Assembly (NCBI RefSeq): GCF_029581275.1
Contig: NZ_CP120742.1
Location: 2,888,501 to 2,952,500, forward strand
Source of the DNA: Micromonospora sp. WMMD1155
Lineage (GTDB): Bacteria; Actinomycetota; Actinomycetes; Mycobacteriales; Micromonosporaceae
Length of the DNA stretch: 64,000 bases
Direction of reading: 5' to 3'
Positions within the stretch are counted from its first letter, which is position 1. Each line of letters begins with the position of its first letter. The notes beneath the pieces were generated by a model that saw nothing but the letters and a program-made list of their open reading frames with translations, had not been told where the DNA came from and ran no database searches. Position numbers and translations under genes: made by a program. Shown here one piece after another: positions 1,111 through 32,293 of this stretch.

Positions 1111-2930
1111 TCGCCGTCAAGCGCCGACGCGCCCGGAACGACGACAGCGCCAGCCCGCCGTCCGCGGGACTCGCGGCGACGGTAGCTCCGGCCTCGGTGG
1201 AGGTGACGCCACGGTTCCTGCGAGTCGGAGACGGCTACGCGGCCACCCTGGTGGTGACCGGGTATCCGGCCGAGGTCGGGCCGGCGTGGCTGGAGCCACT
1301 GCTGTCCTGGCCCGGCCGGCTGGACCTCGCGTTGCACATCGACCCGATCCCCGCGCCGGTGGCGGCGTCGCGGCTGCGCAACCAGCGGGCCCGTTTCGAG
1401 TCGTCCCGGCGGGCGGACGAGCAGAAGGGAAAGCTGACCGACCCGTACGTGGAGGCCGCCGCCGACGACGCCGCCGACCTCGCCGAACGCCTCGCCCGCG
1501 GGGCGGCGAAACTGTTCCGCGTCGGCCTGTACCTCACCGTGCACGCCCGCACCGAAGCCGAACTCCTCGACGCGTGCGCGCAGGTGAAGGCCGCCGCCGC
1601 GTCCACCCTGATCGAGGTGCAGCCCGCGACGTGGCGGCACCTGCCCGGCTGGACCACCACCCTGCCGCTTGCCACCGACAGCCTGCAGATGCGCCGCACC
1701 ATGGACACCCAGGCCCTGGCCGCCGCGTTCCCCCTCGCCAGCGCCGATCTGCCCGCGCCGTTGCCCGGTGACCCGGCCACCACCGGTGGGGTGCTGTACG
1801 GGGTCAACCCGGACTCCCAGGGCATCGTCTGGTGGGACCGGTGGGCGCAGGAGAACCACAACAGCGTGATCCTCGCCCGCTCCGGCGCCGGCAAGTCCTA
1901 CTTCGTCAAACTCGACGTGCTCCGCAACCTGTACCAGGGAGTCCAGGTCGCCGTCGTCGATCCCGAGGACGAATACCTGCGCCTTGCCGACGCGGTCGGC
2001 GGCACCATCGTGCGGCTCGGCGCACCCGGCGTGAAGATCAACCCCCTGGATCTGCCGATCGGGGACACCCGCCCGGACGTGCTCACCCGCCGCGGGCTGT
2101 TCCTGCACACCCTTATCGCGGTGCTGCTGGGGCATGTGCCGCCGCCCGCAGAGCGCGCCGCCCTGGACCGGGCGATCCTCGCCGTCTATCGGCAGGCGGG
2201 CATCACCGCCGACCCGGCCACCCACCACCGGCCCGCGCCGCTGCTGAAGGATCTGGCCGCGACACTGCGGGCCGACGACAACGCCGCCGCCCACGAGTTG
2301 GCCGCCCGGCTGGCACCGTGGGTGGCCGGCTCGTTCTCGGACCTGTTCGACTCACCGACCACGACCCGCCCGGACGGGCATCTGGTCGTCTGGAGCCTGC
2401 GGCACCTGCCGGACGAACTGCGCACCGTCGGCACGCTCCTCGCCCTGGATGAAATCTGGCGGCAGGTCGACCTCCCGCGGCAGTACCGCTCCACCTCCTC
2501 GCCGCAGGCGCGGCGACTGGTGGTGGTGGATGAGGCGTGGCTGCTGATGCGCGACGGTGAAGGCGCCCGGTTCCTGTTCAAGATGTCCAAGGCCGGCCGG
2601 AAACGCAACGCGGGCCTGTCGGTCGTCACCCAGGACGTCGCCGACGTGCTCGGCACCGACCTCGGCCAGGCCGTCGTGTCCAACGCGGCCACGCAGGTGC
2701 TGCTGAAGCAGGCTCCGCAGGCCATCGACCAGGTCGCCGACGCATTCGGGCTGACCGCCGGGGAACAGCGGATGCTGCTGTCCGCCCGAGTCGGGCACGG
2801 CCTGCTGATCTCCGGCACGAACCGGACCGCGTTCGAGTCGATCTCCTCGCAGGCCGAACACCTTCTCGCGACCACGAAGCCGTCCGACCTCGCCGACCTC
2901 GACCCCGACGATGGGGAGGAGGACCTGTGA
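1107..2930 (+). CDS. VirB4-like conjugation ATPase
   Basis: A 607-residue ATPase of the VirB4/TraC type that powers the type IV secretion channel. A P-loop (RSGAGKSYF) lies at about residues 258-267 and the Walker B strand VVVDEAWLLM at about 470-480. The stretch following Walker B, KMSKAGRKRNAGLSVVTQD, is typical of VirB4 proteins (sensor region and arginine-rich segment). The N-terminal 240 residues match the non-ATPase VirB4 domain in position. The protein is shorter than Gram-negative VirB4 (about 800 residues), as is common in actinobacterial elements. It overlaps both neighbours by 4 bases, consistent with co-translation with the PrgI-like and coupling proteins. Confidence 0.9.
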   Translation: MIAVKRRRARNDDSASPPSAGLAATVAPASVEVTPRFLRVGDGYAATLVVTGYPAEVGPAWLEPLLSWPGRLDLALHIDPIPAPVAASRLRNQRARFESSRRADEQKGKLTDPYVEAAADDAADLAERLARGAAKLFRVGLYLTVHARTEAELLDACAQVKAAAASTLIEVQPATWRHLPGWTTTLPLATDSLQMRRTMDTQALAAAFPLASADLPAPLPGDPATTGGVLYGVNPDSQGIVWWDRWAQENHNSVILARSGAGKSYFVKLDVLRNLYQGVQVAVVDPEDEYLRLADAVGGTIVRLGAPGVKINPLDLPIGDTRPDVLTRRGLFLHTLIAVLLGHVPPPAERAALDRAILAVYRQAGITADPATHHRPAPLLKDLAATLRADDNAAAHELAARLAPWVAGSFSDLFDSPTTTRPDGHLVVWSLRHLPDELRTVGTLLALDEIWRQVDLPRQYRSTSSPQARRLVVVDEAWLLMRDGEGARFLFKMSKAGRKRNAGLSVVTQDVADVLGTDLGQAVVSNAATQVLLKQAPQAIDQVADAFGLTAGEQRMLLSARVGHGLLISGTNRTAFESISSQAEHLLATTKPSDLADLDPDDGEEDL

Positions 2931-5440
2931 CACCACTGCATGCCCTGTCGCCGACGCCGGCGCCCAGTCCTTCCGGGCCGGGCGCCGGGGTCATTGCCCC
3001 GCCGAGCGCGCCCACTCGGTGGGTTCTGCACGCCGCGGAGTGGGCGGTGGACCGGCCGTGGCTGCTCGGCGTCGCCGCCGCCCTGCTCATCGCCTATGTC
3101 GCCGGGCGCAACCTGGTCGACGGGTGGCGGCACCGCCGCCACGCCGACGGCGCCCGCCTCGTCACGATCGCACCACCGCCGGAGGTCGACCCGCACAGCG
3201 CCGCCGCGCTGTGGGCGAACCTGCACGGCACCCTCACCCCCTCACGCCGGCGCCGGCTGCTGTACGGCAGCCCGCACGTGGTGTGGCAGTACACCTGGAC
3301 CGGCCGGCAACTGCTCATCTCGATCTGGGTGCCCGGCAGCGTCCCGCAGGGGGCGGTGGAGGCCGCCGTCCGGGCCGCCTGGCCCGGCGCCGCCTGCACC
3401 ACCGACGACCAGGCATCACCGCCGATCCCGCTCCACGTGCCGGCCGCCGTCGGCGGGCACCTGCTGCCGACCGCGGCCGAGTGGCTGCCTTTCGAAACCG
3501 ACCACGACAACGACCCGCTCCGAGCACTCATGTCGGCCGGGTCGCAGCTCAAACCGGACGAGTACGCCTGCGTGCAGGTCCTCGCCCGCCCCGCCACCCC
3601 CCGCCGCGCCGCACGAGCCCGCCGCGCCGCCGGCCGGCTCCGCGACGGCAAGACGGCCGTACCGGCAATCAACCCCGCCGCGCCGCTCCTGTGGCTCATC
3701 GAGGCGTTCCTTCCCGGCCGCACCGCCACCTCCCGGAGCGGTAGCCAGCCGGCCAGCCGCCGAGACCCCGGCGTGGAGCGCGACGTGCGGGCGATCCTCG
3801 ACAAGACCGCCCACCCGCTGTGGACGATCGGCATCCGCTACGCCATCGCGAAGAACAACCACCGCGGCGGGTCCCGGCCGGAGGCCAGGCTGCGCGGTGT
3901 CGCGGACGCGGTCGCCTCGTCGTTCGCCGTCTACGCGGGCCGCAACCGGCTCGCCCACCGGGCGCGGATGGCGCAACCGGTGGCCGTGCTGGCCACACGG
4001 CGGCTCGGATCCGGGTTCCTGGCCTCCACCCCCGAGCTGGCCGTCCTCGCGGCGCTGCCGCGGGATCTGGCCGTGCCGGGGTTGGATCGGGCGCGAGCGA
4101 AGTCCATGCCCGCCCCGGTGGCGGTGCCGACCGGCGGCCGCGGGATGAAGGTCCTCGGTGACGCCGAAGTTGGTGGCCACGCGGTGGCCCTGTCCGTCGC
4201 CGATGCGAGGTATCACCTGCATGTGGTCGGATCGACGGGCTCCGGGAAGACCACCCTCCTGGTCAACATGGCCGTCGAGGACATCAAAGCCGGCCGGGGC
4301 ACCGTGGTCATCGACCCACACGGCGACATGGTCCTCGACATCCTCGACCGGCTCCCCGCCAGCGCCGCCGGCCGAGTGGTGCTGTTCGACCCCGACCAGC
4401 CCAACCCGCCCACCCTCAACCCGCTGTCCGGCACCGACCCAGACCTGGTCGTCGACAACCTCGTCAGCATCTTCGGGAACATCTTCGCGAAGGCGTGGGG
4501 GCCGCGGATGGACGACGTCATGCGGGTGGCCTGCCTGACCCTGCTGCGGCACGCCAACGTCACCCTCCAGCACATCCCACCCCTGCTCAACTCGGCGCAG
4601 TTCCGGTCGGCGATGACCGTCGGCCTGGACGACCCGGCCGGCCTGTCCGGGTTCTGGCAGTGGTACGACGACCTCAACCCCGCCCTGCGCTCCCAGGTCA
4701 TCGGCCCCGTCCTGGCCCGCCTGCGGGCGTTCCTCCTGCGCGACTTCGTCAAGCGCACCATGCGCTACCCCCAGTCCAGCTTCGACATGGGCAAAGTCCT
4801 CGACGGTGGGGCGCTGCTGGTGCGCATCCCAAAGGGGCAGTTGGGCGAGGACACCAGCAAGCTGCTCGGCTCCCTCGTGTTGGCGCAGGTCTGGCAGGCC
4901 GCGACCGCCCGCGCCGCCGTTCCGGCGGACAAACGCCGCGACGCCACGTTGATCATCGACGAGTGTCAGAACTTCCTTACCCTCGCCAACTCCCTCGATT
5001 CGATGTTGGCGGAGGCGCGGAAGTACCGGCTGTCAATGGTCCTCGCGCACCAGGACCTGGCCCAGTTCCCGAAGGACCTCCTGGCAGCGGCGTCGGCGAA
5101 CGCCCGTAACAAGCTGTACTTTTCTGTCGCCCCGGAGGACGCCCGCGTGCTGGCCCGGCATACCCTGCCCGAGCTCGATGAGCACGACCTGACGCACCTG
5201 GACGCCTACACCGCTGTCGGGCGGCTCGTCGTGGGTGGGCGGCAGACGCCGGCGTTCACCCTCAGGACCCGGCCACCGAAGCCGGTCGTGGGCGAGGCGA
5301 CGGCGATCCGGCAGGCCGCGGCACAGGCGGTGCCGGCGCAGGACACCAGCGCGATCGACGACCTCGTCGACCGGTTTTCGGCCCGACCTGACGACAACCG
5401 CCGGTCCCGGGGCAAGAGCGGTCCGAAGGCGAACGCCTGA
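2927..5440 (+). CDS. TraG/VirD4-like type IV coupling protein
   Basis: An 837-residue conjugative coupling ATPase that would hand the DNA-protein complex to the secretion channel. One membrane segment lies at about residues 44-62. The P-loop STGSGKTTLL is at about 436-445, followed by VVIDPHGDMVLDILDR, a hallmark of TraG/VirD4-type ATPases, and Walker B LIIDECQNFL at about 675-685. The sequence AHQDLAQFP after Walker B is the expected Q-containing motif. The region between membrane segment and ATPase (about 70-400) is long and unassigned. The last codons are basic. With VirB4 and PrgI this defines a single-stranded-DNA, T4SS-type element rather than an FtsK-type actinomycete ICE. Confidence 0.9.
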   Translation: MTPLHALSPTPAPSPSGPGAGVIAPPSAPTRWVLHAAEWAVDRPWLLGVAAALLIAYVAGRNLVDGWRHRRHADGARLVTIAPPPEVDPHSAAALWANLHGTLTPSRRRRLLYGSPHVVWQYTWTGRQLLISIWVPGSVPQGAVEAAVRAAWPGAACTTDDQASPPIPLHVPAAVGGHLLPTAAEWLPFETDHDNDPLRALMSAGSQLKPDEYACVQVLARPATPRRAARARRAAGRLRDGKTAVPAINPAAPLLWLIEAFLPGRTATSRSGSQPASRRDPGVERDVRAILDKTAHPLWTIGIRYAIAKNNHRGGSRPEARLRGVADAVASSFAVYAGRNRLAHRARMAQPVAVLATRRLGSGFLASTPELAVLAALPRDLAVPGLDRARAKSMPAPVAVPTGGRGMKVLGDAEVGGHAVALSVADARYHLHVVGSTGSGKTTLLVNMAVEDIKAGRGTVVIDPHGDMVLDILDRLPASAAGRVVLFDPDQPNPPTLNPLSGTDPDLVVDNLVSIFGNIFAKAWGPRMDDVMRVACLTLLRHANVTLQHIPPLLNSAQFRSAMTVGLDDPAGLSGFWQWYDDLNPALRSQVIGPVLARLRAFLLRDFVKRTMRYPQSSFDMGKVLDGGALLVRIPKGQLGEDTSKLLGSLVLAQVWQAATARAAVPADKRRDATLIIDECQNFLTLANSLDSMLAEARKYRLSMVLAHQDLAQFPKDLLAAASANARNKLYFSVAPEDARVLARHTLPELDEHDLTHLDAYTAVGRLVVGGRQTPAFTLRTRPPKPVVGEATAIRQAAAQAVPAQDTSAIDDLVDRFSARPDDNRRSRGKSGPKANA

Positions 5441-5555
5441 ACGCCGCAGGGCGGTTGAAGCGAGATCGACAGATCGGTCGACCGGGGTCGACCGCGTCCC
5501 GGTCGCCCCTTCCGTGAGGGCTTCACCAGCCCTTCACCGCCGATCACCACACCGC

Positions 5556-5587
5556 ACTGACAGATCCGACCGTCCGGGTCTGTCAGT
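5556..5587. repeat. Perfect 9-base inverted repeat upstream of the replication-relaxation gene
   Basis: ACTGACAGA at 5556-5564 is mirrored exactly by TCTGTCAGT at 5579-5587 around a 14-base centre containing CCGACCG. It lies about 100 bases before the start of the replication-relaxation gene. A closely related palindrome with the same centre word occurs at 6708-6732, and the left half recurs at 6819-6834. The site is a good candidate for an operator or for part of an origin of transfer; the sequence alone does not distinguish these. Confidence 0.6.
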
Positions 5588-5683
5588 GCCGCTCACCGGC
5601 CGTGTCTAGCCTCCTGCGACCACCTCACCGAACTCAGACACCCTCCCTCGGAGGGAACTCCTCTTCCGCTTGGAGCATCCACC

Positions 5684-6658
5684 GTGTCCACCAACAACTC
5701 CGTCTCCCGCTCGGCCTCTTCCTCTTCCTCCGCCTCTTCGTCGGGTTCCCGTTCGTCCTCTCGTCTCGCTCGTCTTGACCGGCTTCGTCGTCTTACCGCC
5801 CGTGATCATCAGCTGTTGCGGTGGCTCGCCGAGCACTACGTGCTGTCCACCGACCAGATCACCACCGCGCTGTTCCCGTCGCGCCGCTCCGCCCGCCTCC
5901 GCCTCGCCCAGCTGCACCACATGGAGGCGGTCAGCCGCTTCGTGGACGTCACCACCGGCAGCGGCCAGTACCTCTACACCCTCGGACCGCTCGGCGCCGT
6001 GGTCCACCCCACCCAGTTCAACGACCCGAACCACGCCGACGCCCGCGCCCCACGCACCAGCATCGACCGCACCGAACGCATCATCGGCAGCCGCCGCCTG
6101 CCCCACCTGCTCGGCACCAACCAGCTGTTCGTCGACCTCATCAGCTACGCCCGCACCGACGGGAACGCCCGGCTGCGCCGGTGGTGGTCCGAGCAGCACA
6201 CCACCGCCGCCTTCGCCGCCGCCTCCTACGCCGCCGGCAGCGGCACTGGTGTCCAGCCCGACGGGCACGGCATCTGGCACGCCGGAGGGCGCACCGTCGG
6301 GTTCTTCCTCGAACACGACAATGGCACCGAACCTCTCGGTACCGTGCTGCGGAAGCTGCGCGCGTACGAGCAGCTCGCCCGCCATGGGCCCCGCTACCCG
6401 GTGCTGCTGCGCGTCCCCGGCCGCCGCCGCGAACAGCACCTCCTCGACGCCCTCGCCGGAGTGCCCACCGCCATGCCCGTCGCCACCGGCCTCCACGGCG
6501 AGCACCCCGCCGGGCCTGCCTGGACGCTGACCACCGACCCCGGGCGGCGACGCTGGCTGCACGAACTGCCCTCCGACCACGGCCCGGACAACCCGGCCAC
6601 CAACCCGCACCGCTTCCCCGACACCGACCTCAGCGGCCCCGCCGACCCGGAGCCCTGA
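5684..6658 (+). CDS. Replication-relaxation family protein
   Basis: A 324-residue protein of the replication-relaxation family found next to conjugation genes on actinobacterial plasmids and ICEs. After a serine-rich N-terminus (about residues 5-27) comes a winged-helix-like segment at about 35-80 (RLTARDHQLLRWLAEHYVLS) that fits DNA binding. The middle carries ERIIGSRRLPHLLGTNQLF, a family signature, and an LEHDNGTEPLGTV segment with acidic and histidine residues around residue 210. The start is a GTG with a GGAG about 10 bases upstream. The family has been linked to mobilisation or replication initiation; its biochemical action is not established. It is flanked by palindromes on both sides. 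Confidence 0.75.
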   Translation: MSTNNSVSRSASSSSSASSSGSRSSSRLARLDRLRRLTARDHQLLRWLAEHYVLSTDQITTALFPSRRSARLRLAQLHHMEAVSRFVDVTTGSGQYLYTLGPLGAVVHPTQFNDPNHADARAPRTSIDRTERIIGSRRLPHLLGTNQLFVDLISYARTDGNARLRRWWSEQHTTAAFAAASYAAGSGTGVQPDGHGIWHAGGRTVGFFLEHDNGTEPLGTVLRKLRAYEQLARHGPRYPVLLRVPGRRREQHLLDALAGVPTAMPVATGLHGEHPAGPAWTLTTDPGRRRWLHELPSDHGPDNPATNPHRFPDTDLSGPADPEP

Positions 6659-10789: not shown

Positions 10790-10843
10790 GCGGCTCAGCC
10801 GTGCCCCTTCCCTGATCTTCCCTGCGCGTCAGACCTGACGAGG

Positions 10844-14001: not shown

Positions 14002-14028
14002 GCAGCCCCCTTCAACCCGCCCCGTCAC

Positions 14029-18858: not shown

Positions 18859-20109
18859 TTAGGCCATGTCCGTAGCAACTGCCCGTAAATGACGAATGTG
18901 ATCAGTCATTGGCGACGGCTGCTCCGCCGCTTTGCCGCCGGCTATGAGGTTGAGTGTTGGGCGGTCGGTGACAGCACCAAGTAGTTGCCGGATCCGCTCC
19001 ACCGGCCAGCGCAGTTCCTGCGCCAGCGCGGAGATGGTTAGCCCATGCTCGGCGGCCAGTTCGAAGGCTCTTCTTAGGAGTGTCGGCTGTTCACCGGGGA
19101 AGCCGTCGATAGGTTCCAGGGCTGGTTTGGACTGGTTGAGGCGTTGGTAGGCGCGTGCCGCAGTAGTGTCCGTGTAGAGGCCTACTTCTCGGCAGCGGTA
19201 GATGAGGCTCTGGATCGACGTACCCCACGTGCGCTGGAGCTCAGCGAACGCCGCAAAGTTCACCCTTGCGGGCAGGAGGGGGCTGATGCTATCGCGCGGA
19301 GTGAGGAATTCCGCGGCGAAGGCGTCGGCGTCCCGTTCATGCCTGGAGTCACCGGGAAGGGCGTCGGCATGGAGTACGAGGTGGGCGAGTTCGTGCGCGG
19401 CGGTGAAGCGTTGCCGGTATACATCCTGGGATCGATCGCGACTGATGACAATGAACGGCCGGGGTAGCCGGGAGGTCGAGAAAGCATCCACGGTACGGAA
19501 GTCGCCGTCGGCTGGCGCATGGACGACGACGATGCCGTGGACCTCAAGAGTGCGCACGAGGTGCGGAATGGGCGCGGTGCCGAGATTCCAGTGCTGACGA
19601 AGAGCTCGGGCAGCTTGGACCGGCTCGGTGGGAAGGCTCGCGCCGGGATGAATCTCGCCGCCGGCGAACCCGGGAAGGTCTACGTGGGGCAGGAAGACGC
19701 GCCGTTCGAGGGCGTAGATGAGTTCCCAGACCTGCTCGGTGAAGGAGATGGCCTTGGCGCGCTGGTAGGAGCGTGTCTCACGGAGATGGCGGAAGTGCGC
19801 TGCGGAGGAGTCGAGGCGGGCGTAGGGACGCCCGACCTGGAAGAAGCCGACGGGGTAGCCAAGGTGTTCGGCGAGGGCGATCAGAATCTCGGGTCGTGGC
19901 CGCGCTCCTGATTCGTACTGGCCGATGGCCGCAGCGCTGACCCCGACCCGGTCGGAGAGTTCCTTCTTGGTCAGCCCGGCGAGCTGGCGAGCTTGTGTCA
20001 GACGTGCCGAGTCGAACTGCCTGGCGACAGCACCGGCTGACCCCGAGGGCGACTCCACGGGAAGGCCGCCGGCAGAGAACAGGTCATCGGGCTCGTCAGT
20101 TCTGGGCAT
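18859..20109 (-). CDS. XRE regulator fused to ImmA/IrrE metallopeptidase
   Basis: A 416-residue protein. A helix-turn-helix of the XRE/Cro type lies at about residues 36-90 (RLTQARQLAGLTKKELSDRV). It is followed by an ImmA/IrrE-like zinc peptidase domain with H239-E-L-A-H243 and the downstream glutamate in ERDADAFAAEFLTP (about 258-270). Such fusions cleave or derepress repressors in response to stress or invasion. A further C-terminal region of about 90 residues contains a second HTH-like stretch (LTISALAQELRWPVERI). The gene overlaps its upstream partner gene by 14 bases and lies back to back with the pPIWI-RE operon, so it may control that system. Confidence 0.85.
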   Translation of the reverse strand: MPRTDEPDDLFSAGGLPVESPSGSAGAVARQFDSARLTQARQLAGLTKKELSDRVGVSAAAIGQYESGARPRPEILIALAEHLGYPVGFFQVGRPYARLDSSAAHFRHLRETRSYQRAKAISFTEQVWELIYALERRVFLPHVDLPGFAGGEIHPGASLPTEPVQAARALRQHWNLGTAPIPHLVRTLEVHGIVVVHAPADGDFRTVDAFSTSRLPRPFIVISRDRSQDVYRQRFTAAHELAHLVLHADALPGDSRHERDADAFAAEFLTPRDSISPLLPARVNFAAFAELQRTWGTSIQSLIYRCREVGLYTDTTAARAYQRLNQSKPALEPIDGFPGEQPTLLRRAFELAAEHGLTISALAQELRWPVERIRQLLGAVTDRPTLNLIAGGKAAEQPSPMTDHIRHLRAVATDMA

Positions 20110-20884
20110 CGCTTCGCTGTTGGTGGTTGCTACGTTCGGCTACGGGACTGACGGTGGCCTGCTCAGCGGCGGTACGGGCGCGCAGCGTCGGGCTGGCCAG
20201 CTCCGCCTGGTCGAATCGCGGCGACGCGGTCGAGGCCGACGGCTGGGTTACCAGGCGAAGCCCGGGGATCGGGTCTGCGGACGGGACGAGCAGGGGTTGT
20301 GCGGATACCCAGCTCGCTGTGCCGGTCTGGCTCACGCTGATCTGGCCCCATCCGATGTTGAGCAGCCCGTGCCGCTCGTGCGCGGCGTAGTAGATGATCA
20401 CGATACCGTCTGGTTCCAGCCCGCGCAGGAGGTCGGTGACGTGGGTGTCCGACTCGGACTCCATTCCTTCGAAGGCCGGCTGTTCATGATCGGGTTTGGG
20501 GCCGAAGAGCCGCGCCAGCTCCAGCGTCGTCTTGTTGATCTTCTTCAGGGCGCGAGGGCTGTCGTAGGCGGTCGCCAGGTCCTTCGCGTACTCCACCGGC
20601 AGCACGGCGACGTTGTTGATGACGACGATGCGGTAGCTCTTGCCCGACGGGCGCACCGTCTGGGCGCCGGGGACCTCACCGAGGTGGTTGACCAGTTCCT
20701 CGTACCGCGCCGGCCAGCCTCCGCCGAAGGCGTGGCGCGACGTCAGGCGGACCGCATGGTGGCCGTCCATCTGCCGTCCGACGGCGGCCTGGATGGCCGA
20801 CGGGATGGCCTCCGTCAGCGTGGCTGCCACGTCGCGGCCGAACAGGGACGTCGCCCATGCTGCGGGCCGGATCTTCTTCGACAC
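20096..20884 (-). CDS. Uncharacterised partner of the XRE-ImmA/IrrE gene
   Basis: A 262-residue protein of unknown function. An AGGAGGTG ribosome binding site at 20891-20898 sets the GTG start at 20884. The N-terminal 110 residues are a mixed region with a histidine-rich stretch (GRQMDGHHAVRLTSRHAFGG). YRIVVINNVAVLPVEYAKD and LLRGLEPDGIVIIYYAAHER look like core beta strands of a compact fold. The C-terminal 60 residues seem disordered. It overlaps the XRE-ImmA/IrrE gene by 14 bases, which argues for a shared function such as sensing, or being a target of the peptidase. It diverges from the pPIWI-RE operon across about 230 bases. Confidence 0.55.
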   Translation of the reverse strand: MSKKIRPAAWATSLFGRDVAATLTEAIPSAIQAAVGRQMDGHHAVRLTSRHAFGGGWPARYEELVNHLGEVPGAQTVRPSGKSYRIVVINNVAVLPVEYAKDLATAYDSPRALKKINKTTLELARLFGPKPDHEQPAFEGMESESDTHVTDLLRGLEPDGIVIIYYAAHERHGLLNIGWGQISVSQTGTASWVSAQPLLVPSADPIPGLRLVTQPSASTASPRFDQAELASPTLRARTAAEQATVSPVAERSNHQQRSDAQN

Positions 20885-21118
20885 GATTCTCACCTCCTGC
20901 TTTACCTGCGTGCAGAAGGCTAGCATCTGTGCTTTAGTTTTGAGCGCGATGACGCCACTTTGGTGACGCTGAGTGTGTTCCCGCAGATCACGCCGCCTTC
21001 TGTGTGACGTGATCTGTTGTGCGCCGCGACCGCGGCGGACGTCGATCAGGCCGCACACGGTGTCCAGTTGCTGCGCTGCGGGTCGCCCAGGATGAGCGGC
21101 CGGGGAGGAAGGTGACGC

Positions 21119-22294
21119 ATGACGGCGGATCTGACCAGGTTCGGCCGGGACACAGTCGTGACCACGGTGACGCAGGCCGCCAGTATCTGGACGTCGCCGG
21201 GACCGCCCGGCGAGCGCTGGCGGCAGGTGGCTGACCTGCACGGGCGGGTCGCCTTGGCGCACCTGGCGCACGGTGAACCCCTGCTGCCCCTGGTGGCCTT
21301 CACCGACCTGTTGACCGGCCCGCTGTCCGGGCTTCTACCGGCCCCACTGAGGGAAGCGTGCGACGAGGTCTTGTTGGTGGAGGACGGACAGCTGAGTGCT
21401 GCTGCCGCTGACCTGCTGATGGAGAACCTCGCGCCGTCGATGACGGCCTCCGATGTCGTCGGCTGGTCGGTGCCGCGCCTGAGCGCGGAGAAGGTACAGG
21501 GCTGGCTCTACGGACAGATGCTGGCGACGGGCACGGAGGAGGGATACCGGCGGGCGCGACGGACCGTCATCGAACACGCGGCGGGGGAGATGTCGGAGGT
21601 GATCGACGCGATCAAGGCCGCAGGGCTGCCCCGCGAGGGCCTGGTCGAGGAGATCCCCGCGTGGGCGTGGGTGGCGCACGAGGGGGAGTACTACTGGTTC
21701 GGGTGCCCCGTGTGCCGGTACCCGATGCGGTACCAACTCGGTCGGCTTGCCTGTGCCTACCCGCCGCACGCGAAGGCTCTCGGCGGTTCGATCACCGTGA
21801 AGGCGGCGAAGGGCCGTGCACCGGTGGCCGGCGCGTGGAATGTCGAGCGTGCCGCGCAGTTGGGCGGACCACAGGTCACCACTGCGGTTCCGGTCAAGGG
21901 GCAGGTGTGCCTCGTCCGGCCGGCTTGGCGGTACTCGACCATCCCCGGTTGTGAGGAGGTCCGCCTGCACCGCGAACTCGAGACGATGCCGGGCGTCACC
22001 GCGAGACTGTGGCCGCACGTCGACCGGTACGACCTGGAAGTGCGGGCGCCAGGACGACGGCGGCCCTGGCGGGTCGATGTCAAGGACTACACCGACCCCG
22101 CGCGGCTGGCCAACGAGCTGCTGCGCCGGGGCGGCATCGGCGAATCTGACCTGTTGATCGTCGTCCCCGACTACCGGGCGGGCCATGTGGCGGTCCTCAA
22201 CGAGCGGCTGCGCCTTGCCACCGGATCACGGCGCCGGTTCGCCACGACGTCTCGCCGATTCCTCACCGAGGTGAAGAGGGCTGCAGCCGGATGA
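21119..22294 (+). CDS. pPIWI-RE system nuclease (REase, Y-type component)
   Basis: A 391-residue protein. It matches the nuclease component of three-gene pPIWI-RE systems. A helical N-terminus is followed by a zinc-ribbon-like segment (FGCPVCRYPMRYQLGRLAC, about residues 200-218). The C-terminal domain has YDLEV with D305 and WRVDVKDY with D320-x-K322, the PD-(D/E)XK catalytic core. GGAGGAAGGTG precedes the ATG. The gene overlaps the helicase gene by 4 bases, and that gene abuts the PIWI gene, so the three are a single operon. It probably cuts target DNA recognised through the PIWI protein; that step is inferred. Confidence 0.8.
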   Translation: MTADLTRFGRDTVVTTVTQAASIWTSPGPPGERWRQVADLHGRVALAHLAHGEPLLPLVAFTDLLTGPLSGLLPAPLREACDEVLLVEDGQLSAAAADLLMENLAPSMTASDVVGWSVPRLSAEKVQGWLYGQMLATGTEEGYRRARRTVIEHAAGEMSEVIDAIKAAGLPREGLVEEIPAWAWVAHEGEYYWFGCPVCRYPMRYQLGRLACAYPPHAKALGGSITVKAAKGRAPVAGAWNVERAAQLGGPQVTTAVPVKGQVCLVRPAWRYSTIPGCEEVRLHRELETMPGVTARLWPHVDRYDLEVRAPGRRRPWRVDVKDYTDPARLANELLRRGGIGESDLLIVVPDYRAGHVAVLNERLRLATGSRRRFATTSRRFLTEVKRAAAG

Positions 22295-25200
22295 GCAACC
22301 GTTCGCGTTTCCACAGAACCGCCAACCGGTTCCTCATCGGACCGTCGCTGCGTCTGGCGCTCGGCCTGGCCGAACAGCTCTTCCCCACCGAGACCTGGGA
22401 AGGCGCGCCCGCGGTCGACCCCCGCGACGCGCGGTTCCTCCTCTCCGGCCAGCTCGGGGTGTGGAGCCTCTGGCGCGACGACCTCACCGCCACGCAACGA
22501 CATGCGATCGACCGCCTCATCCATCTGCGCCCTCGCCGCCTGGCCACAGAAGGTGGCCTGCGCGTCAGCCTCGACGAGCACCTGCGCAACAACCGGTCGC
22601 CCCGCTACCTTGAGTCCGGAGACTTCCTGCAGGTAATCGACGGTGTGCCGGTCGGTGATCTGATCACAGCCGCGCTGCAGGAGCTGGAGGATGCCTCATC
22701 CCCGCTGCGCGTCCCCCCAGAGGCGCTGGCCGACAGGCGCTACAGCTCGTCGGTCTTCCTCGCCGGCCCCAGCCGCGACGAGTTCCGGCGCAACACCTAC
22801 CTCATCCCGCGGGCGCCGATGCCCTACCCGCCTGTCCCGGTTCTGGACGCCACCGCGCCAGCCGAGGTGGTGGCCGACCTCGCGGACATGCACGCCACCG
22901 CCGAACTGATCGACAAGAAGCGGGGTGACGATGCCTTCCGCCTGGCGGAGGTCCTGGACGGATTCTCGCGGAAGCTGCGGACGCCACAGGGCCAACCCGT
23001 CGACCGGCTGAAGCTCGCGGCAGGGCCCCTCCAGCTCATGATCGCTCCCACTGGTTCCGGCAAGAGCGTCTGGATGCGCGTCGCCGCCACCCACCTCGCC
23101 AGCCACAGAGGAGGCCGCCGCACCGTTGTCCTGCTCACCCCTGATGTCGAGAGCACGCTGGATCTTGTCGCGGCCATCCGCAGTGACCTCGCGGCGCTGA
23201 GCCTCGACATCCCCGTCGTCGCACTCATGTCCCACCGACGGCTCATCGAGGTGGCCGTCCAGCGCACCAACGACGCACCGGAGGATCCGGCCGGTGCCAG
23301 GTGGACCTGGCAGGAGCTCGGCTACTCCTGCATGCTGAGCGACGAAGAAGGCGCCGCATGGCAGCCAGGCCAGGAGCCCTGCACGGATCTGCACGAGCCC
23401 GGCGTCGAAGGCCGCCACCGATGCCCTCTGATCGGAGCCTGCGAGAAGTGGGCGCCATGGCGGCAAGCCGCCGGCCCAGCCAAAATCATTGTCACCAACC
23501 ACGCCTACTTCCAGCAGGGCTCGGTGCCGTTTCCCGTCATCACGAACGGCACACTCCACGGACGGATGAGCGCGCAGGAGCTGCTGCTGCGGCGCGCCGA
23601 CATCGTCCTTGTCGACGAGGTCGACGCCTTCCAGGGACATGCGGTCACTCAGTCCGGCCGCACCCTCGTCCTGGCCCGTCGTGACACGCAGAAGCTGCTC
23701 CTGGAGAAGCTCGACGACCAGCGCAAGGAACAGGTCGAATCCGACAACGTGCCGGGCGAACTCGAACTCGCCTTCCAGCGGGCCATCCACCGGGTCGAGT
23801 TCCTCTCCGAGCGCTACCTGGCCGCCGTCGTCAACGGGTTCATCGACCCGCAGGACCCACTCGGCCCCAAACAGGCCAGGCTGCACCTGCCACGCCGATG
23901 GGACAACCTCCTCGCCTGCCGCCTCTTCGGCCTCAACGAACTCGAAGACCGCCCCAGCGACGACCAACTCGACAGGTTCAAATCCCTGTTCACCCAGAAC
24001 GAACCCGACCCTGACGCACTACCCGCCGGCTGGGCGGACCTACGCAAGGAACTGCGCCTCGTCGTCGCCGACGAACCGGAATCCGATCTGATCCACAAAA
24101 GAAGCCAAGGCATAGTCAGCGCGATCCAAACGATCACCGCGCCCACCACCGACGAGGGCGAACCGGACGCCGACGTCGACCTGGACGAAACGGACTGCGG
24201 CCGTCAGACCGGGAAGGACGACGATCCGGCAGACCCCACCGCTTCGGCGTGGCAGATCCAGACCGCCCACCTTCTCCTACGTAGGGCGTTCCTCGGCGAA
24301 CTCCAGCAAGGGCTCGCTGAACTGGAAGCCCTACTGCCGCTGATGCGCGACAGCGGCATGCGGCTCGCCGACGACGTCGAGGCCGCGCTGGACCGCGCTC
24401 CCTCCTGGCAGGCAACACCCGAAGGACCGATCGGCCGAACGGTCTTCGGATTCGCCGTCACCGGCGACCCGGAGAGCCGCTCCGACCGGCAGTTCACCGC
24501 AGAGATCCTCTCCGGCGACCCGCACGCCTACACCGCAGACCTCGGAATCACTACGGCTCCCGCGCTCACGGGCGCGCCCAGAGTCATCGTCGGACTCTCC
24601 GCGACCGCCTACCTACCCGGTTCCCCCACCAACCACGTCCATGCCGACGTCGCCTGCTACTACCCCGACAACGCCGGCATTGGCACTGGCACTGGCAGGC
24701 TGACCGTCAGCAACGCGTCCGTCAACGACCACACGACCAACCGCGGGATCGTCATCTCCGGAGCAGCCCGCAACCGCAAGGCCCAACTACTCGAAGGCAT
24801 CGGATCCGGCCTCTGGGACCAGATCCTCGAACAGAGACTGCGGGACCTGCACGACCACCGGGACGCCGAACGCCGAGCCCGTGCCCGGGTCCTGCTCGTC
24901 ACGAACTCCTACGACCAGATGCTCGCCCTCTGCCGCGGCCTGATCGCCGGGGGAGCCCACCGCACCCGCATCGCCGTCGCCGTCCCCGCCGGTGACCGCC
25001 GCGGCCTGCAAATCCCCGACGACGTACTCGCCATCCCCGCCAGCCGGCTGCGGACCTTCCCGGGCACGGGCAGGGACGTGCTGATCTCACCTTTCGCACG
25101 GGTTGCCCGCGGGCTCAACATCGTCGTCGGCCACCGGTCCGCGCTCGACTCCATCTGGGTATGCGTCCGGCCCATCAAGCTCATCGACGAACCATCCGCA

Positions 25201-25620
25201 CTGGTTGCCCACACCGGTGCCCACGCCCGCCGCAACCGGCACCCCGGCGAGGACCCGCGCAAGGAACTCGACGAACGCCACCGCATCGCCGCTAAACATC
25301 TGGAGCTCATCAACAGGTCCAACCCCGCCTTCGGGCGCCTGCCCCCCGACGTGCGAACCGCGATCTTCGCCGACGTCCTGGCCGACCTGATCCAACTCGC
25401 CGGGCGCGCAAGGCGTGGCGGCACCAACACAACTCTTCACCTGGTCGACAACGCCTTCCACCGAGGAGGCGCCGCACCGGGCAGCGACTTCGCCTCCCTC
25501 ATCCGCAACCTCCACCAGCGATGGCGCGACGACAACCAACTGGACCAGGTCCGCTCCATCTACGGCACCACCATCGACGCGTTCTTCACGTTTGCCGGCA
25601 TCAACGACAGGAACCCCTGA
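22291..25620 (+). CDS. DinG/XPD-like Fe-S helicase of the pPIWI-RE system
   Basis: A 1,109-residue superfamily 2 helicase. An N-terminal domain of about 240 residues, as in the Z-type component of pPIWI-RE systems, precedes the helicase core. Walker A APTGSGKS lies at 252-259 and the DEAH-type box VLVDEVDAF at about 441-449. Between them four cysteines at about 347, 364, 377 and 383 are placed as in the iron-sulphur domain of XPD/DinG helicases. Motif VI QLAGRARRG is at about 1036-1044. It would unwind target DNA or R-loops for the PIWI protein. Its stop overlaps the next gene's ATG by one base. Confidence 0.88.
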   Translation: MSNRSRFHRTANRFLIGPSLRLALGLAEQLFPTETWEGAPAVDPRDARFLLSGQLGVWSLWRDDLTATQRHAIDRLIHLRPRRLATEGGLRVSLDEHLRNNRSPRYLESGDFLQVIDGVPVGDLITAALQELEDASSPLRVPPEALADRRYSSSVFLAGPSRDEFRRNTYLIPRAPMPYPPVPVLDATAPAEVVADLADMHATAELIDKKRGDDAFRLAEVLDGFSRKLRTPQGQPVDRLKLAAGPLQLMIAPTGSGKSVWMRVAATHLASHRGGRRTVVLLTPDVESTLDLVAAIRSDLAALSLDIPVVALMSHRRLIEVAVQRTNDAPEDPAGARWTWQELGYSCMLSDEEGAAWQPGQEPCTDLHEPGVEGRHRCPLIGACEKWAPWRQAAGPAKIIVTNHAYFQQGSVPFPVITNGTLHGRMSAQELLLRRADIVLVDEVDAFQGHAVTQSGRTLVLARRDTQKLLLEKLDDQRKEQVESDNVPGELELAFQRAIHRVEFLSERYLAAVVNGFIDPQDPLGPKQARLHLPRRWDNLLACRLFGLNELEDRPSDDQLDRFKSLFTQNEPDPDALPAGWADLRKELRLVVADEPESDLIHKRSQGIVSAIQTITAPTTDEGEPDADVDLDETDCGRQTGKDDDPADPTASAWQIQTAHLLLRRAFLGELQQGLAELEALLPLMRDSGMRLADDVEAALDRAPSWQATPEGPIGRTVFGFAVTGDPESRSDRQFTAEILSGDPHAYTADLGITTAPALTGAPRVIVGLSATAYLPGSPTNHVHADVACYYPDNAGIGTGTGRLTVSNASVNDHTTNRGIVISGAARNRKAQLLEGIGSGLWDQILEQRLRDLHDHRDAERRARARVLLVTNSYDQMLALCRGLIAGGAHRTRIAVAVPAGDRRGLQIPDDVLAIPASRLRTFPGTGRDVLISPFARVARGLNIVVGHRSALDSIWVCVRPIKLIDEPSALVAHTGAHARRNRHPGEDPRKELDERHRIAAKHLELINRSNPAFGRLPPDVRTAIFADVLADLIQLAGRARRGGTNTTLHLVDNAFHRGGAAPGSDFASLIRNLHQRWRDDNQLDQVRSIYGTTIDAFFTFAGINDRNP

Positions 25621-28028
25621 TGCGCACCCTGGCCTTTCCCTACACCGAAGCGATGGCGGAGAAGATCCACGGCTACACCCTCGGCAGCGAGGTCAACGAC
25701 ACCTGGCAGGACCTGAACCGCCGATACACCCGCCACCCGAAGAACCTGCCGTACAGGGATCTGAGCCTCGGCTTGCGCTACGTGTCCAGCGACTACGCCA
25801 CCATCTGCAAGGATCCCGACGGCCCCGGCACGCTGCTCCTGATGCGCAAGAAGATCGACACCGCCATCATCAGCCGGCTCTTCGCCGCCTTCGAACGAGA
25901 CCTCGTGGCCAGGCACGGCGCACCATTCGAAGACCTCCTCGGCCCACTGCTACGCCGTACCAAGCCACGCACGATTCACATCGCCAAGTACCTCCAGGCG
26001 GGCACGGTGACACACGCCGACATCCCGAACTGGGTCTTCGACGTCGCCACCTGGCGCACTATCGAGCTCCTCCGAGGTGCGCTCAAGCTGCCCGACGGTA
26101 CGGACCTGCTTCTCCGTCCCGACATCGACGGCAACCTCGTCGCCTTCAACCGCCCGCTTCCCGAGACGCACCCCAGGGCCGAACAAGGCATCCATTACAT
26201 CAGTCTCGAACCCATCACCGTCCCCGGCTACCCCGGTATCCTGCTCAACCTCGACGCCCACATCAGCGCCACCACTGGCTTCCCCGGCAACGCCAAGAGC
26301 CTCTGGATCGCCACCGACGACACCGGCATGCTGCTCACCGCCAGACACCGCTACGACCGGCCCACCAACCGAAACGTGATCACCGGGCTCCTTCCCCAAC
26401 TCGTCGACTCCTTCAGCATCCGCGGCGTGCCCGCCGACTTCACCGCAGATGACCTCCTCGCGACCCACCCCCGCATCCGCGCCCGGCACGCCACCAGACC
26501 CGACAGGCACCCCATCGGCTCCGGACCGGGCCGCCGATTCCTGGACTGCGTGCTCGAGCACGCCACCGCCAGGCTCAACACGGAGTCGCTCGTCCTGGAA
26601 ACCACACCCATACGCAACATCGACGCCCCCGGCGACCCCGACCGGCACGCGAAACTCGCCTCGGCCGTCAACGCGGCAGCACGGCCGATCCACATCAGCG
26701 TCGTCTACCAGGACGACCTACAGCGCCACCGGTCCGCCCAGGCGCTCACCGAAGTACTCAACCTCCCCGAGAACAGCCTCACAACCGCAGGGAGCACCTT
26801 CCTCGACGGCGCGCTCACCATCACCTTCGACAGCGCCAAGACCGACATGCTGGTCGCTCCCGGACCCACGCACCTCCGGAACACCCTCGCCGAGCAGATC
26901 ATCTCCACCAAGACCCCGGACGCCCTGCACCTCGTACTCGCCGAGAGCAACAAAGAACTCGCCGCAGCCAAGCCCGCCGAAGACCCCAAGCCACAGCTTC
27001 GCCGCGCCCTGGCCGCCCACGGCACCGTCAGCCAGTTCATCGATCCAGCGTCAACGCCCAAGCCTGACGCCGTCGACCACCCCGCCAATGCCGCCGTACG
27101 AGACCTCCTCCGGGCAGCGGGACTCACCGCCACCACACCCACCCGGGTGTTCTCGCGCCCCCTGCAGCCGCAGCCATGCGTCGTCGTCGGTCTCTACACC
27201 CGCGAACAGAACCAACCCGCCACCCGCATGATCAGCCTCTCCGCCCTCATTAGCGACGGAACCGACACACCCTGGCACATGCTCGGCTACCACCCCGACG
27301 CCCACGGCTGGAACGACCTCCCCACCGCCATCGCCGCACATCACGCCACCGACCTGAGCCAGTTCAACGACCCGAACCCCACCACCCGCACAGCACTGGC
27401 GCGGGCCTACACAGAACGGGCCCTGCACCAGCTCCGCACCCGCTACGACGACATCCCGATGATCATCTACATCGACGGCTCCAACCGGTACCCACTGTGG
27501 TCCGGCACCACCAACAAAAACCTGGGTAACGGACAGCTCGATGCGCTGCCCCACCTCGGAATGATCAACCCAGCCGACATCTCACTGGTCAGGGTCAACA
27601 CGGCATCAGACAGCAAGCTGCCACAACCCGTCAGGGCAACCGGAAAGCGGGTAAACGTCGACGACGGTGCAGTCCCAGCCACCGAACGGCTCTACCACCT
27701 TCCCGGCGCGCACCAGGACACCTACTACCTCATCAACCGCTCGCGTAGCGACAAAGCGTTCCAATCCAGCGTCAGAGCTGGCCACCGTCAGACACGATTC
27801 GACCTCGCGGAAGCAAGAGAACTACGCACACCCTGGCACGCGATGACCTGCACCGAATTTCTTCTCCTCGAACACGGCGCCTTCGAACGCCAACACCTCG
27901 CGGCGCTCAGCGCGCGGCTGTGTGGGCATTCGCTGGCCTGGGACGGGCGGACAGCCCGACCCGCGCCCGTACACCTCGCTCGACAGATCCTGGAGGACCA
28001 TCCCGGGCGCAAGACGGCTGCACGCTGA
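25620..28028 (+). CDS. pPIWI-RE protein (prokaryotic Argonaute relative)
   Basis: An 802-residue protein recognised by gene order and by its C-terminal RNase H/PIWI-like domain. YDDIPMIIYIDGSNRYPLWSG places the first core strand aspartate near residue 617; ISLVRVNTASDS follows on a later strand, and YYLINRSRSDKAFQSS with the arginine-rich stretch fits the guide-5'-end binding part. The N-terminal half lacks named domains, as is usual for this family. pPIWI-RE proteins are thought to use nucleic-acid guides with helicase and nuclease partners to attack invading plasmids or phages. Whether this PIWI domain itself cleaves is uncertain, since I cannot place a full acidic tetrad. Start: ATG sharing one base with the helicase stop (TGATG). 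Confidence 0.85.
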   Translation: MRTLAFPYTEAMAEKIHGYTLGSEVNDTWQDLNRRYTRHPKNLPYRDLSLGLRYVSSDYATICKDPDGPGTLLLMRKKIDTAIISRLFAAFERDLVARHGAPFEDLLGPLLRRTKPRTIHIAKYLQAGTVTHADIPNWVFDVATWRTIELLRGALKLPDGTDLLLRPDIDGNLVAFNRPLPETHPRAEQGIHYISLEPITVPGYPGILLNLDAHISATTGFPGNAKSLWIATDDTGMLLTARHRYDRPTNRNVITGLLPQLVDSFSIRGVPADFTADDLLATHPRIRARHATRPDRHPIGSGPGRRFLDCVLEHATARLNTESLVLETTPIRNIDAPGDPDRHAKLASAVNAAARPIHISVVYQDDLQRHRSAQALTEVLNLPENSLTTAGSTFLDGALTITFDSAKTDMLVAPGPTHLRNTLAEQIISTKTPDALHLVLAESNKELAAAKPAEDPKPQLRRALAAHGTVSQFIDPASTPKPDAVDHPANAAVRDLLRAAGLTATTPTRVFSRPLQPQPCVVVGLYTREQNQPATRMISLSALISDGTDTPWHMLGYHPDAHGWNDLPTAIAAHHATDLSQFNDPNPTTRTALARAYTERALHQLRTRYDDIPMIIYIDGSNRYPLWSGTTNKNLGNGQLDALPHLGMINPADISLVRVNTASDSKLPQPVRATGKRVNVDDGAVPATERLYHLPGAHQDTYYLINRSRSDKAFQSSVRAGHRQTRFDLAEARELRTPWHAMTCTEFLLLEHGAFERQHLAALSARLCGHSLAWDGRTARPAPVHLARQILEDHPGRKTAAR

Positions 28029-28277
28029 GGTGTGAACGGCCGAGGGGGCCCGCACACGGCCGGTCATTACACGCATACTGGACCGAGACTCTGGCACACG
28101 CGGCACAGCGCGACCGCCGATCGGGAGGACGGGGAGGCTTACCACCCACCCCGCGCATCGCAATGCCCGATTCTCAAACCACAACGCCCCGTTGAGCACC
28201 GGTTCCGGTTACCGCGCTGCCAGCTTGGTGGACACGGTGTCCGTCCTCCCACAATAGCCACGTGTGAACCTATCGAT

Positions 28278-29711
28278 ATGGTCGTTCCGTTGAACCAGAT
28301 CGTGAGCTCGAACATCACGGCCCACCTCGGCGGTTGCCCGCCATGGTGTGTCAAGGTCCACGCCGAGGAGGAGTTGGGTAGTCCGGGCGACCGGGCCCGG
28401 GGGCACTCCCGGATGGTGATGCAGACCCATAAGGGTGAGGTCGGCGGAATGGCGGTGGAGATCTTCTCACTGGAGCACCTTGACCAGCCCGAGGAGAACA
28501 CCCCAGCGGAGTTGGTCGTGTCCGCTCCGGATCCGCTCAGTCTGGCCGACGCCGGCTACCTCGCCACCTCCATTAGGAAGGCGGTCATGGAAGCCCGCCG
28601 AACGCACCGGCCGTACTGGCTGAGGCGGGCGTGTCCTTCCTGGTGTGTCGCGACGCACCAGGACGGCGACCATCTCGAGGATCGCATCCACTGGCCAGAC
28701 GACTCGCCGCCTGTGCTGTTGTCGCTACACAGCTCAGTGAGTACTGCCGGCGAGTCGTGCAGCGATGGGACGTACCGGCCGCCGGGGCTGGAGGTCGACT
28801 TGGAGCAGCACGCCGACGCGGTCGAGCCGGTGGTGAAGTTCGTGATCGAGGGCGCGACGGCGGCGTTGCGGCTCACGCTGGACGAGGCTGAGCAGGTGCG
28901 GACGGCGGTCGGACGAGTTGTGGCCATGGCGCGCGATACGGACAACCAGCTGGTCGAGGCCGGATTGGCCGGTCCAGCGCCGAGGCCATACCGGCCGAGC
29001 CTCGACCAGACCGTGGCCGATCTGGTGGTCCACGACGAGGGCCTGACGGCCGAGCAGAAGATCAGCGTGTTCCGCGGCGTGGTCGCCGAGCGACTTACCC
29101 AGCAGGGTCTGAGCGTCGCTGAGCAGGCTGTGCGGTTGAACTGCACCGAGGAGCAGGTGCTGGACGCGATGGTGGACTTCGCGATGTGGTCGCACGCCGG
29201 CTACCTGCTTCCACCCGCCAAGCCGGCCGAGCCGCAGTGCCCGGTGTGGTGCGGTGGGGAGTGCCTTACCGAAGACGGCGTCCGCCTGCACGACCGGCAC
29301 GTGGCCGCCGTGTACGGCCAGCACCACGAATGTTCCAACGACATCAAGGTGGCGACGGTCGACCTTCAGGCGTTCAACTCTCCCGACGGGTACGACGAGC
29401 CGCCATCAGTGACGCTGGCCATCGACAACCCGGAACAGCGCCCCACCGACATGACCAAGCTCGACGGGATGAACCACAACGCGGTCCGGAACCTGGCCGC
29501 ATCGCTGCTGTCGGGCTTCTGGGACCGTACGACGATCCGGCTCACCCCTCAGAAAGCGGCGAACCTCGGCGCGTCACTGATCGCCGCATCCCGCGCTGCC
29601 CACAACAACACCGCAGTCAAGCCTGACCACAGCGCGGATGTGGAGCGGTCCGGACCCTGCGCAACGAGGTCCGGGCCACTCATCCAGGGGACGCTCAACC
29701 CGTGCAAATGA
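28278..29711 (+). CDS. DUF6907-like protein with three CPxWC modules
   Basis: A 477-residue protein with three copies of a module whose first part reads C-P-x-W-C: GGCPPWCVKVH (near residue 14), RACPSWCVATHQDGDH (near 118) and PQCPVWCGGECLTEDGVRLH (near 317). Each is followed by a histidine and a beta-rich stretch ending in a helix that reads like LTLDEAEQVRTAV. This is the DUF6907 pattern common in actinobacterial mobile elements; function unknown, possibly metal binding. Typical members have a single module, so three are unusual. The ATG at 28278 is chosen as the last start before the first module; the ribosome binding site is weak. Confidence 0.6.
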   Translation: MVVPLNQIVSSNITAHLGGCPPWCVKVHAEEELGSPGDRARGHSRMVMQTHKGEVGGMAVEIFSLEHLDQPEENTPAELVVSAPDPLSLADAGYLATSIRKAVMEARRTHRPYWLRRACPSWCVATHQDGDHLEDRIHWPDDSPPVLLSLHSSVSTAGESCSDGTYRPPGLEVDLEQHADAVEPVVKFVIEGATAALRLTLDEAEQVRTAVGRVVAMARDTDNQLVEAGLAGPAPRPYRPSLDQTVADLVVHDEGLTAEQKISVFRGVVAERLTQQGLSVAEQAVRLNCTEEQVLDAMVDFAMWSHAGYLLPPAKPAEPQCPVWCGGECLTEDGVRLHDRHVAAVYGQHHECSNDIKVATVDLQAFNSPDGYDEPPSVTLAIDNPEQRPTDMTKLDGMNHNAVRNLAASLLSGFWDRTTIRLTPQKAANLGASLIAASRAAHNNTAVKPDHSADVERSGPCATRSGPLIQGTLNPCK

Positions 29712-30704: not shown

Positions 30705-30718
30705 CCGACGCCACGGAA

Positions 30719-30753
30719 GACCGCCGCCAACGCCTCCTGACCCGGCGGCGGTC
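30719..30753 (+). terminator. Hairpin after the ArsR gene
   Basis: GACCGCCGCC at 30719-30728 pairs with GGCGGCGGTC at 30744-30753 around a 15-base loop, starting 15 bases after the stop codon. It has no T tract. Confidence 0.65.
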
Positions 30754-30786
30754 GGGCCGCAGGCGCGAAGGTTCTAACCTGCTTTC

Positions 30787-32069: not shown

Positions 32070-32114
32070 CTACGGATCAGAAGGTTAGGGGTTCGAGTCC
32101 CTTCGGGCGCACCA
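32070..32114 (+). other. Attachment site: 3' part of a tRNA-Arg(ACG) gene
   Basis: The 45 bases run from the anticodon loop CTACGGA through the variable region, a T arm (AGGGG, TTCGAGT, CCCTT) and the acceptor 3' strand CGGGCGC-A to an encoded CCA. The bases upstream do not form the D arm, the anticodon 5' stem or a GCGCCCG acceptor strand, so this is not a complete tRNA. A 3' tRNA fragment at the edge of conjugative cargo is the classical distal attachment site left by a tRNA-targeting integrase. The intact tRNA-Arg and the integrase should lie left of the window. Confidence 0.8.
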
Positions 32115-32120
32115 ACGATC

Positions 32121-32159
32121 AAGGCCGTGACCTGCTGTAACAGGGGTTGCGGCCTTTTT
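32121..32159 (+). terminator. Rho-independent terminator of the tRNA-Arg gene
   Basis: AAGGCCG at 32121-32127 pairs with CGGCCTT, with further internal pairing (ACCTGCTG with CAG and GGT), followed by a run of five T. It starts 7 bases after the tRNA CCA and marks the start of chromosomal sequence. Confidence 0.75.
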
Positions 32160-32293
32160 CCAGTTCCCGACGTCTGTGCGGCCCCGGCGTCAGCCACGGT
32201 GTCCGGCGAAGACGGCGGGTGCCGCCTTTCAGGCCGCGTCGTCCAACGCCGGTTGATCGAGGTGGCCACGGGCCAGTCATGGGATGGTGTCAG

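Follow-up and report, generated by a model that had tools for sequence, protein, structure and literature searches.

The systems closest to the locus described here are the pPIWI-RE systems. Their order of genes, the domains involved and the existence of both catalytic and non-catalytic PIWI proteins were already published in 2013 by Burroughs, Iyer and Aravind, who proposed that R-loop-bearing DNA is restricted in an RNA-dependent manner, with the helicase and the nuclease termed REase being recruited (PMC3702460). According to their account, catalytic residues are retained in only a subset of the family, and a second study speaks of retention in few members (PMC10991935). The latter describes PsPIWI-RE of Pseudomonas stutzeri, whose neighbouring genes encode a DinG helicase and a nuclease, as an active guided nuclease in which mutation of either catalytic aspartate abolishes cutting (PMC10991935). 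In the DdmDE system, the inactive Argonaute DdmE is reported to hand plasmid DNA over to the helicase-nuclease DdmD (PMC12409362), and for the ApsAB system ApsB is described as being without typical PIWI and PAZ domains (PMC11096173). RosmerTA pairs are described as tested anti-phage modules (PMC10440598). Here, a pPIWI-RE triad of Micromonospora sp. WMMD1155 was analyzed within a stretch of 64,000 nucleotides, the window, which covers positions 2888501-2952500 of a 7.34-Mb contig (NZ_CP120742.1). With a probability of about 0.6, this triad is defence cargo of an integrative conjugative element (ICE), in which a non-cutting, guided PIWI protein would act as sensor, a helicase as opener and the REase as cutter, to the benefit of the element.

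The triad genes lie on the forward strand in the order REase-DinG-PIWI. The REase gene (21119..22294) encodes 391 amino acids with a possible helical Y-like domain, a zinc ribbon (C196, C199, C212, H217) and a PD-(D/E)XK site composed of E280, D305 and D320-x-K322. It overlaps by 4 bp with the gene of a DinG-like iron-sulfur (Fe-S) helicase of superfamily 2 (SF2; 22291..25620, 1109 amino acids), which in turn overlaps by 1 bp with the gene of the 802-residue pPIWI-RE protein (25620..28028). An earlier reading of the DNA (the original prediction) had proposed a three-gene pPIWI-RE operon with overlapping gene ends. The same open reading frames (ORFs) were recovered at these positions, and profile searches (Pfam, PADLOC) agree with this proposal by assigning all three products to the pPIWI-RE system. 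The 802-residue protein falls inside PIWI, as its X, MID and RNase H-like pPIWI-RE domains each pass the Pfam cut-offs, and the predicted structure shows the Argonaute fold. The identity of the locus as a pPIWI-RE system is thus virtually certain. It shares with the systems of 2013 the protein families, the gene order, the overlapping genes, the conserved R and E residues of the PIWI protein, the zinc ribbon preceding the REase domain and the Fe-S cysteines of the helicase (PMC3702460). It differs from them in its position on a deep separate branch together with two Micromonospora near-copies and Nocardia jinanensis (43% identity in PIWI), in having no detected same-strand fourth gene directly upstream, and in its location on an ICE with likely ends and a divergent RosmerTA-like flank. 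The triad is a complete new member of a known, little-tested family on a deep branch and not a new kind of system.

The nuclease and the helicase had been predicted to be intact, and the alignments bear this out. D305 and D320-x-K322 are present in the window and kept in most of the aligned REases. The zinc cluster is invariant in all 28 proteins of one alignment; in a wider set of 51 REases the three cysteines occur throughout, the histidine is often replaced by a gap or another residue, and 47 have EDDK at the four catalytic positions. The nuclease part was assigned by Pfam's own pPIWI_RE_REase profile, fold matches by themselves being weak. The putative N-terminal Y domain scores 21.8 bits in Pfam (cut-off 26.7) and 1.1e-6 in PADLOC, and the model is helical in this region. 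The helicase has no Pfam match and was recognized through PADLOC PprDinG (1.9e-94), besides a weak match to the type IV DinG model. Its P-loop, DEVD box, four Fe-S cysteines and motif VI are kept in all 31 aligned proteins.

The PIWI protein has no acidic residue at the expected place in the first RNase H strand. Residue counts are based on 54 distinct proteins from 50 actinobacterial genome loci, three cyanobacterial plasmids and one Streptomyces plasmid. They derive from a 57-row alignment, which is without the fragments L071 and L072 and without L056, ending at a contig edge; three duplicates (L082, L085 and L092, identical in the compared PIWI part to L066, L058 and L049, respectively) were removed. 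Of the further alignments, A3 omits L095 and L099 (broken genes), L098 (partial match) and L076, A4 omits L076 and L095, and A5 comprises a selected 31. At the midpoint of the first strand, Y526 in the window, a histidine occurs in 25 proteins, a tryptophan in 22 and a tyrosine in seven; an aspartate or glutamate was found in none of the 54. This position was tentatively equated with D525 of PsPIWI-RE on the basis of strand order and spacing. Judged in this way, the window protein lacks the first of the two catalytic aspartates (D525 and D610) of the cutting PsPIWI-RE (PMC10991935). The original prediction had found no full acidic tetrad and suggested that cutting may depend on the separate nuclease; this view is strengthened by the loss of the strand-1 acid in the entire set. 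The published statements on a catalytic subset are complemented here by the observation that none of these 54 proteins retains the first catalytic residue.

The residues of the MID domain and the family-specific pair are, on the other hand, well kept. D455 is found in 53, K457 in 50 and Q472 in 51 of the 54 proteins, and the family residues R658 (51/54) and E746 (53/54) are both present in the window. K457 and Q472 presumably form the pocket for the 5' end of a guide, by analogy with known Argonautes. The statement on the MID domain in the 2013 paper was also used for this assignment (PMC3702460). Judging from the residues kept and missing, the active site of the window protein is very probably lost, and the protein seems capable of binding a guide but not of cutting. 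It is very unlikely that it still cuts by means of D619, which lies in the IIYIDGSN strand, H785 and an unrecognized replacement in strand 1. In favour of such cutting, the window has D619, 51 of 54 proteins share H785, and PsPIWI-RE is an active guided nuclease (PMC10991935). However, all 54 proteins have H, W or Y at the strand-1 position, position 619 is acidic in just 29 of 54 proteins (D in 25, E in four), and PsPIWI-RE stops cutting upon mutation of either aspartate (PMC10991935).

All three triad genes are maintained by selection, because the ratios of nonsynonymous to synonymous substitution rates (dN/dS) against two near-copies, in Micromonospora okii (L076) and Micromonospora sp. C95 (L077), range from 0.08 to 0.25. 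The values for M. okii and C95, respectively, are 0.18 and 0.25 for the REase, 0.09 and 0.08 for the helicase, and 0.16 and 0.14 for the PIWI protein. In both near-copies the reading frames are open along the whole triad. These low ratios and open frames already disfavour the idea of an idle cargo that is no longer under selection, which is hardly credible for the window, even though a decayed copy exists in the genus (L072, genome G181) and a broken one in Kibdelosporangium (L095).

Should the PIWI protein not cut, the window operon would have the REase as its only identified nuclease. A PADLOC scan of 18 window ORFs revealed no PprPDDEXK nuclease, and neither did a profile search of all window frames. 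In other lineages, a fourth gene directly upstream groups with PADLOC PprPDDEXK at 15 distinct loci; membership was determined with a profile built in this analysis, and PADLOC itself matched all three tested. The REase site is degenerate in L044, L045, L046 and L053, all of which are among these 15, the REase of L053 being below profile detection and seen by reading the three frames of the gap. In contrast, the 37 loci without PprPDDEXK have the site EDDK in 36 cases and DDDK in one (L070). The association of REase degeneration with the presence of PprPDDEXK yields a Fisher p of 0.005 with related loci not discounted. As the four loci form two related pairs in the tree, they correspond to about two events of degeneration instead of four. 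This pattern fits a scenario in which cutting matters and can move between nucleases, and nuclease duty may have shifted to PprPDDEXK at the four loci.

The triad resembles DdmDE and ApsAB in combining an Argonaute-like sensor with an SF2 helicase and a PD-(D/E)XK nuclease, and DdmE is inactive (PMC12409362, PMC12904381, PMC11096173). The window PIWI protein likewise lacks the strand-1 acid of the tetrad, by sequence, and has a predicted Argonaute fold. In contrast to these systems, its helicase (22291-25620) and nuclease (21119-22294) are encoded by separate genes instead of one polypeptide. Structural alignment of the REase model with the C-terminal part of DdmD extends over 182-211 residues, compared with about 90-115 for most other listed nucleases, all of these fold matches being weak; a significant sequence match to DdmD was not found. 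No publication linking DdmDE with pPIWI-RE was found in a search that excluded preprints and most subscription papers, and in the literature searched DdmD and PIWI-RE are named together in one paper, within a family list and a reference. We tentatively propose that pPIWI-RE triads might be a three-protein form of DdmDE/ApsAB, in which a guide-loaded, non-cutting PIWI protein would pass its target on to an Fe-S helicase and a nuclease, both of them detached and the latter related to the C-terminal part of DdmD. On this ICE, such a form could use guides to keep out rival elements and plasmids, the RosmerTA-like toxin pair being a fail-safe, and in sister lineages nuclease duty would have moved to PprPDDEXK with loss of the REase site. 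This broader proposal is possible but doubtful.

For the triad of the window itself, the following course of events is favoured. The PIWI protein would bind a short nucleic-acid guide via its 5' end and, once loaded, would pair with incoming DNA or a DNA-RNA hybrid without cutting it. It would then recruit the Fe-S DinG helicase, which may open the target or move along it, and the PD-(D/E)XK nuclease would cut, by analogy with the hand-over of plasmids from DdmE to DdmD. The likely beneficiary would be the ICE, shielded from plasmids, phages and rival elements, and the RosmerTA-like pair alongside might provide a second line of defence. Two published observations weigh against such a defence role with a non-cutting sensor: PsPIWI-RE does cut, and its loss affects survival under ciprofloxacin (PMC10991935).

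The conjugative-element setting named in the original prediction is corroborated by conjugation genes, an integrase and a flanking tRNA repeat. Genes for PrgI-like, TraG/VirB4-like ATPase, coupling-protein-like and Replic_Relax proteins, the last read as relaxase-like, are located at 148..6658 (forward strand). A 91-bp repeat at 32070..32160 (forward strand), which overlaps the 3' part of tRNA-Arg(ACG), marks the likely right end of the element. It is 96% identical to genome positions 2826780-2826870, which overlap the 3' portion of an intact tRNA-Arg(ACG) gene at 2826749-2826822. The approximately 94 kb between the repeats contain the PrgI-, TraG-, coupling-protein-like and Replic_Relax genes, a TrbL-like gene and a tyrosine integrase (frame 2877675-2879597). 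Thus, the triad likely belongs to an ICE inserted in tRNA-Arg(ACG) whose likely ends have been located. The element may be composite, because the integrase lies far from both ends. An empty site was not found in the 41 genus genomes searched. The right-hand flank of the attR repeat lacks conservation in the genus: 33 of these genomes match, the own genome included, and elsewhere matches over 200 bases are just 64-69% identical.

In Micromonospora sp. C95, the triad element would span ~123.4 kb to tRNA-Arg at 251.1 kb of its contig. Its conjugation genes are 91% identical to those of the window; beyond it lies a second conjugation set with 75% identity, and a further copy of the repeat occurs at 0.65 kb. 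This arrangement is consistent with two tandem elements at one tRNA-Arg gene, and the original prediction's suggestion of competition between mobile elements may apply to this site. The C95 element lacks most of the cytosine methylase/Vsr block that the window has at 10.8-18.0 kb, which indicates that cargo has been exchanged. Other pPIWI-RE lineages of the genus (L056, L059 and L060) lie at most 5 kb from integrase or Replic_Relax genes, and a distance of 0.6 kb separates the PprPDDEXK-type triad L045 from one more copy of this tRNA-Arg repeat. Extra copies of the tRNA-Arg(ACG) 3' end were also seen in many of the 41 genomes, and the gene is likely a hotspot for tandem elements in the genus.

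The distribution of the family was assessed by searches of whole genomes, genome contigs, viral contigs, plasmids and phages. PF13032 has matches in 27 genomes out of a sample of 397 from the order. The genome searches yielded 30 loci, 25 of which have all three genes in the same order, including L044-L046 with a degenerate REase; the remainder comprise L053, whose REase is too degenerate for the profile, one locus cut at a contig end, one PIWI gene alone and two fragments. The gene standing alone (L064 of G014, 8411-11182) is accompanied by neither an REase nor a DinG gene within 20 kb of extracted sequence. The decayed copy L072 (6930-10550) consists of three abutting blocks, 95-98% identical to window positions 26155-26857, 28332-29626 and 30485-32114, with the intervening stretches missing. 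A scan of genome contigs gave 29 loci with 27 complete, ordered triads, three of which repeat earlier loci. Among plasmid records, the window PIWI protein retrieved 14 from Streptomyces, and part of a second PIWI protein (L044) retrieved seven, six of them cyanobacterial. On one of these seven, the Nostoc plasmid pNe_2, which is typed as conjugative, a PIWI-RE gene follows two genes that fit the triad by size. Phage records gave no match with either query, and 35 pattern matches in viral contigs contained no relative. In a tree built with a quick method and without M. okii, a fully supported group on a long branch unites the window, C95 and N. jinanensis.

This distribution bears on a host-side role, in which the triad would act after DNA damage by helping replication to completion or by resolving R-loops, as has been suggested for P. 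stutzeri. The P. stutzeri knock-out is described as ciprofloxacin-sensitive and filamentous (PMC10991935), and DinG helicases are reported to act on R-loops (PMC3702460). Nevertheless, such a role is unlikely for a family this rare and patchy, whose window member is located on an ICE, whose sister triads are found beside other defence genes and whose PIWI-RE genes also occur on plasmids.

On the other side of the triad's 5' end lies the divergent RosmerTA-like pair. The RmrA-type antitoxin gene (18859..20109, reverse strand) encodes an XRE helix-turn-helix (HTH) and an M78 protease domain (PDLC03955 5.9e-98, Peptidase_M78 1e-17, HTH_3 3.7e-15). It overlaps by 14 nt with the gene of a 276-residue RmrT-like protein (20096..20926, reverse strand), which is a toxin candidate by position only. 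The window thus resembles RosmerTA in its XRE and M78 antitoxin gene with an overlapping partner gene directly upstream (PMC10440598; PADLOC RmrA), but differs in that the partner matches no known toxin family; no other family match was found for it either. RmrT-like matches occur in 19 of the 397 genomes, and at least 10 of these 19 are at most 0.5 kb away from an RmrA match, on its upstream side and on the same strand. The two genes therefore form a pair in its own right, and the RmrT-like family is a candidate new toxin family. The intergenic region between this pair and the triad (20927..21118) contains inverted repeats that are not exactly conserved, and no sigma-70-like promoter was found in it. 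A conserved operator was considered and rejected, as the window has a perfect 9-bp inverted repeat at 20984-21016 but both near-copies have a broken one.

RmrA and its RmrT-like partner lie on the strand opposite to the triad in the window, the two near-copies and Nocardia brevicatena, where an HTH gene is inserted between pair and triad. At least 71 RmrA matches at E 1e-50 or better occur across the 397 genomes, four candidates having been scored for most. By a rough hand estimate, about 0.02 RmrA neighbours would be expected for some 50 triads, so that two independent ones are unlikely by chance. A functional coupling was nonetheless not accepted as established, since clustering is usual for defence genes in any case and the estimate is post hoc. 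It is also improbable that triad and pair serve to stabilize or regulate the ICE itself. Both are on the element, adjacent in the two near-copies and present together in N. brevicatena; however, the RmrT-like gene occurs beside RmrA without a triad, only the window's pair adjoins a triad among the ten pairs listed, and the triad of N. jinanensis, the nearest other relative, has Gabija genes upstream instead. Sister loci further contain bSEFIR, BrxHI-like and DruE-like proteins and type I restriction-modification proteins. A bSEFIR/TIR gene is found on the opposite strand at five loci, upstream at four and downstream at L080; L047 belongs to the bSEFIR similarity group and was left out of this count. 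At 18 loci, a gene of one similarity group abuts or overlaps the REase gene on the same strand, and a Pfam HTH domain was detected in four of five tested members (L086, L099, L101 and L104, not L096). The neighbours track lineage. They are read as the company of a defence island and not as proof of coupling.

Further genes accompany the triad on the element. The DUF6907 gene directly 3' of the PIWI gene (28032..29711, forward strand) is kept in the two Micromonospora near-copies, was not found at the N. jinanensis locus and is outside the triad core. A conserved ORF at 30787-31650 is 99% identical in C95 and has no Pfam or PADLOC match; we take its HxK...GSANFT motif to be phospholipase-D-like. 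At 12059-14028, a C5 cytosine methylase gene (reverse strand) adjoins a gene for a Vsr-like nicking endonuclease (forward strand), and together with ORFs without assignment at 8856-11959 this pair looks like a restriction-modification-like block. Elsewhere on the element, at 2881-2883 kb of the genome (L117, 8531-10666), an SspD/PAPS-reductase-like gene lies beside a C5-methylase-like ORF, possibly a further defence module.

In the literature found, a single pPIWI-RE protein has been studied biochemically, and that one cuts. The window holds a compact, selected gene set in which the PIWI active site is very probably lost and only one operon nuclease was found; the role of the PIWI protein is therefore testable by single-residue changes. 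The ICE setting, together with a tRNA-Arg site seemingly shared by two elements in a relative, provides a natural exclusion assay.

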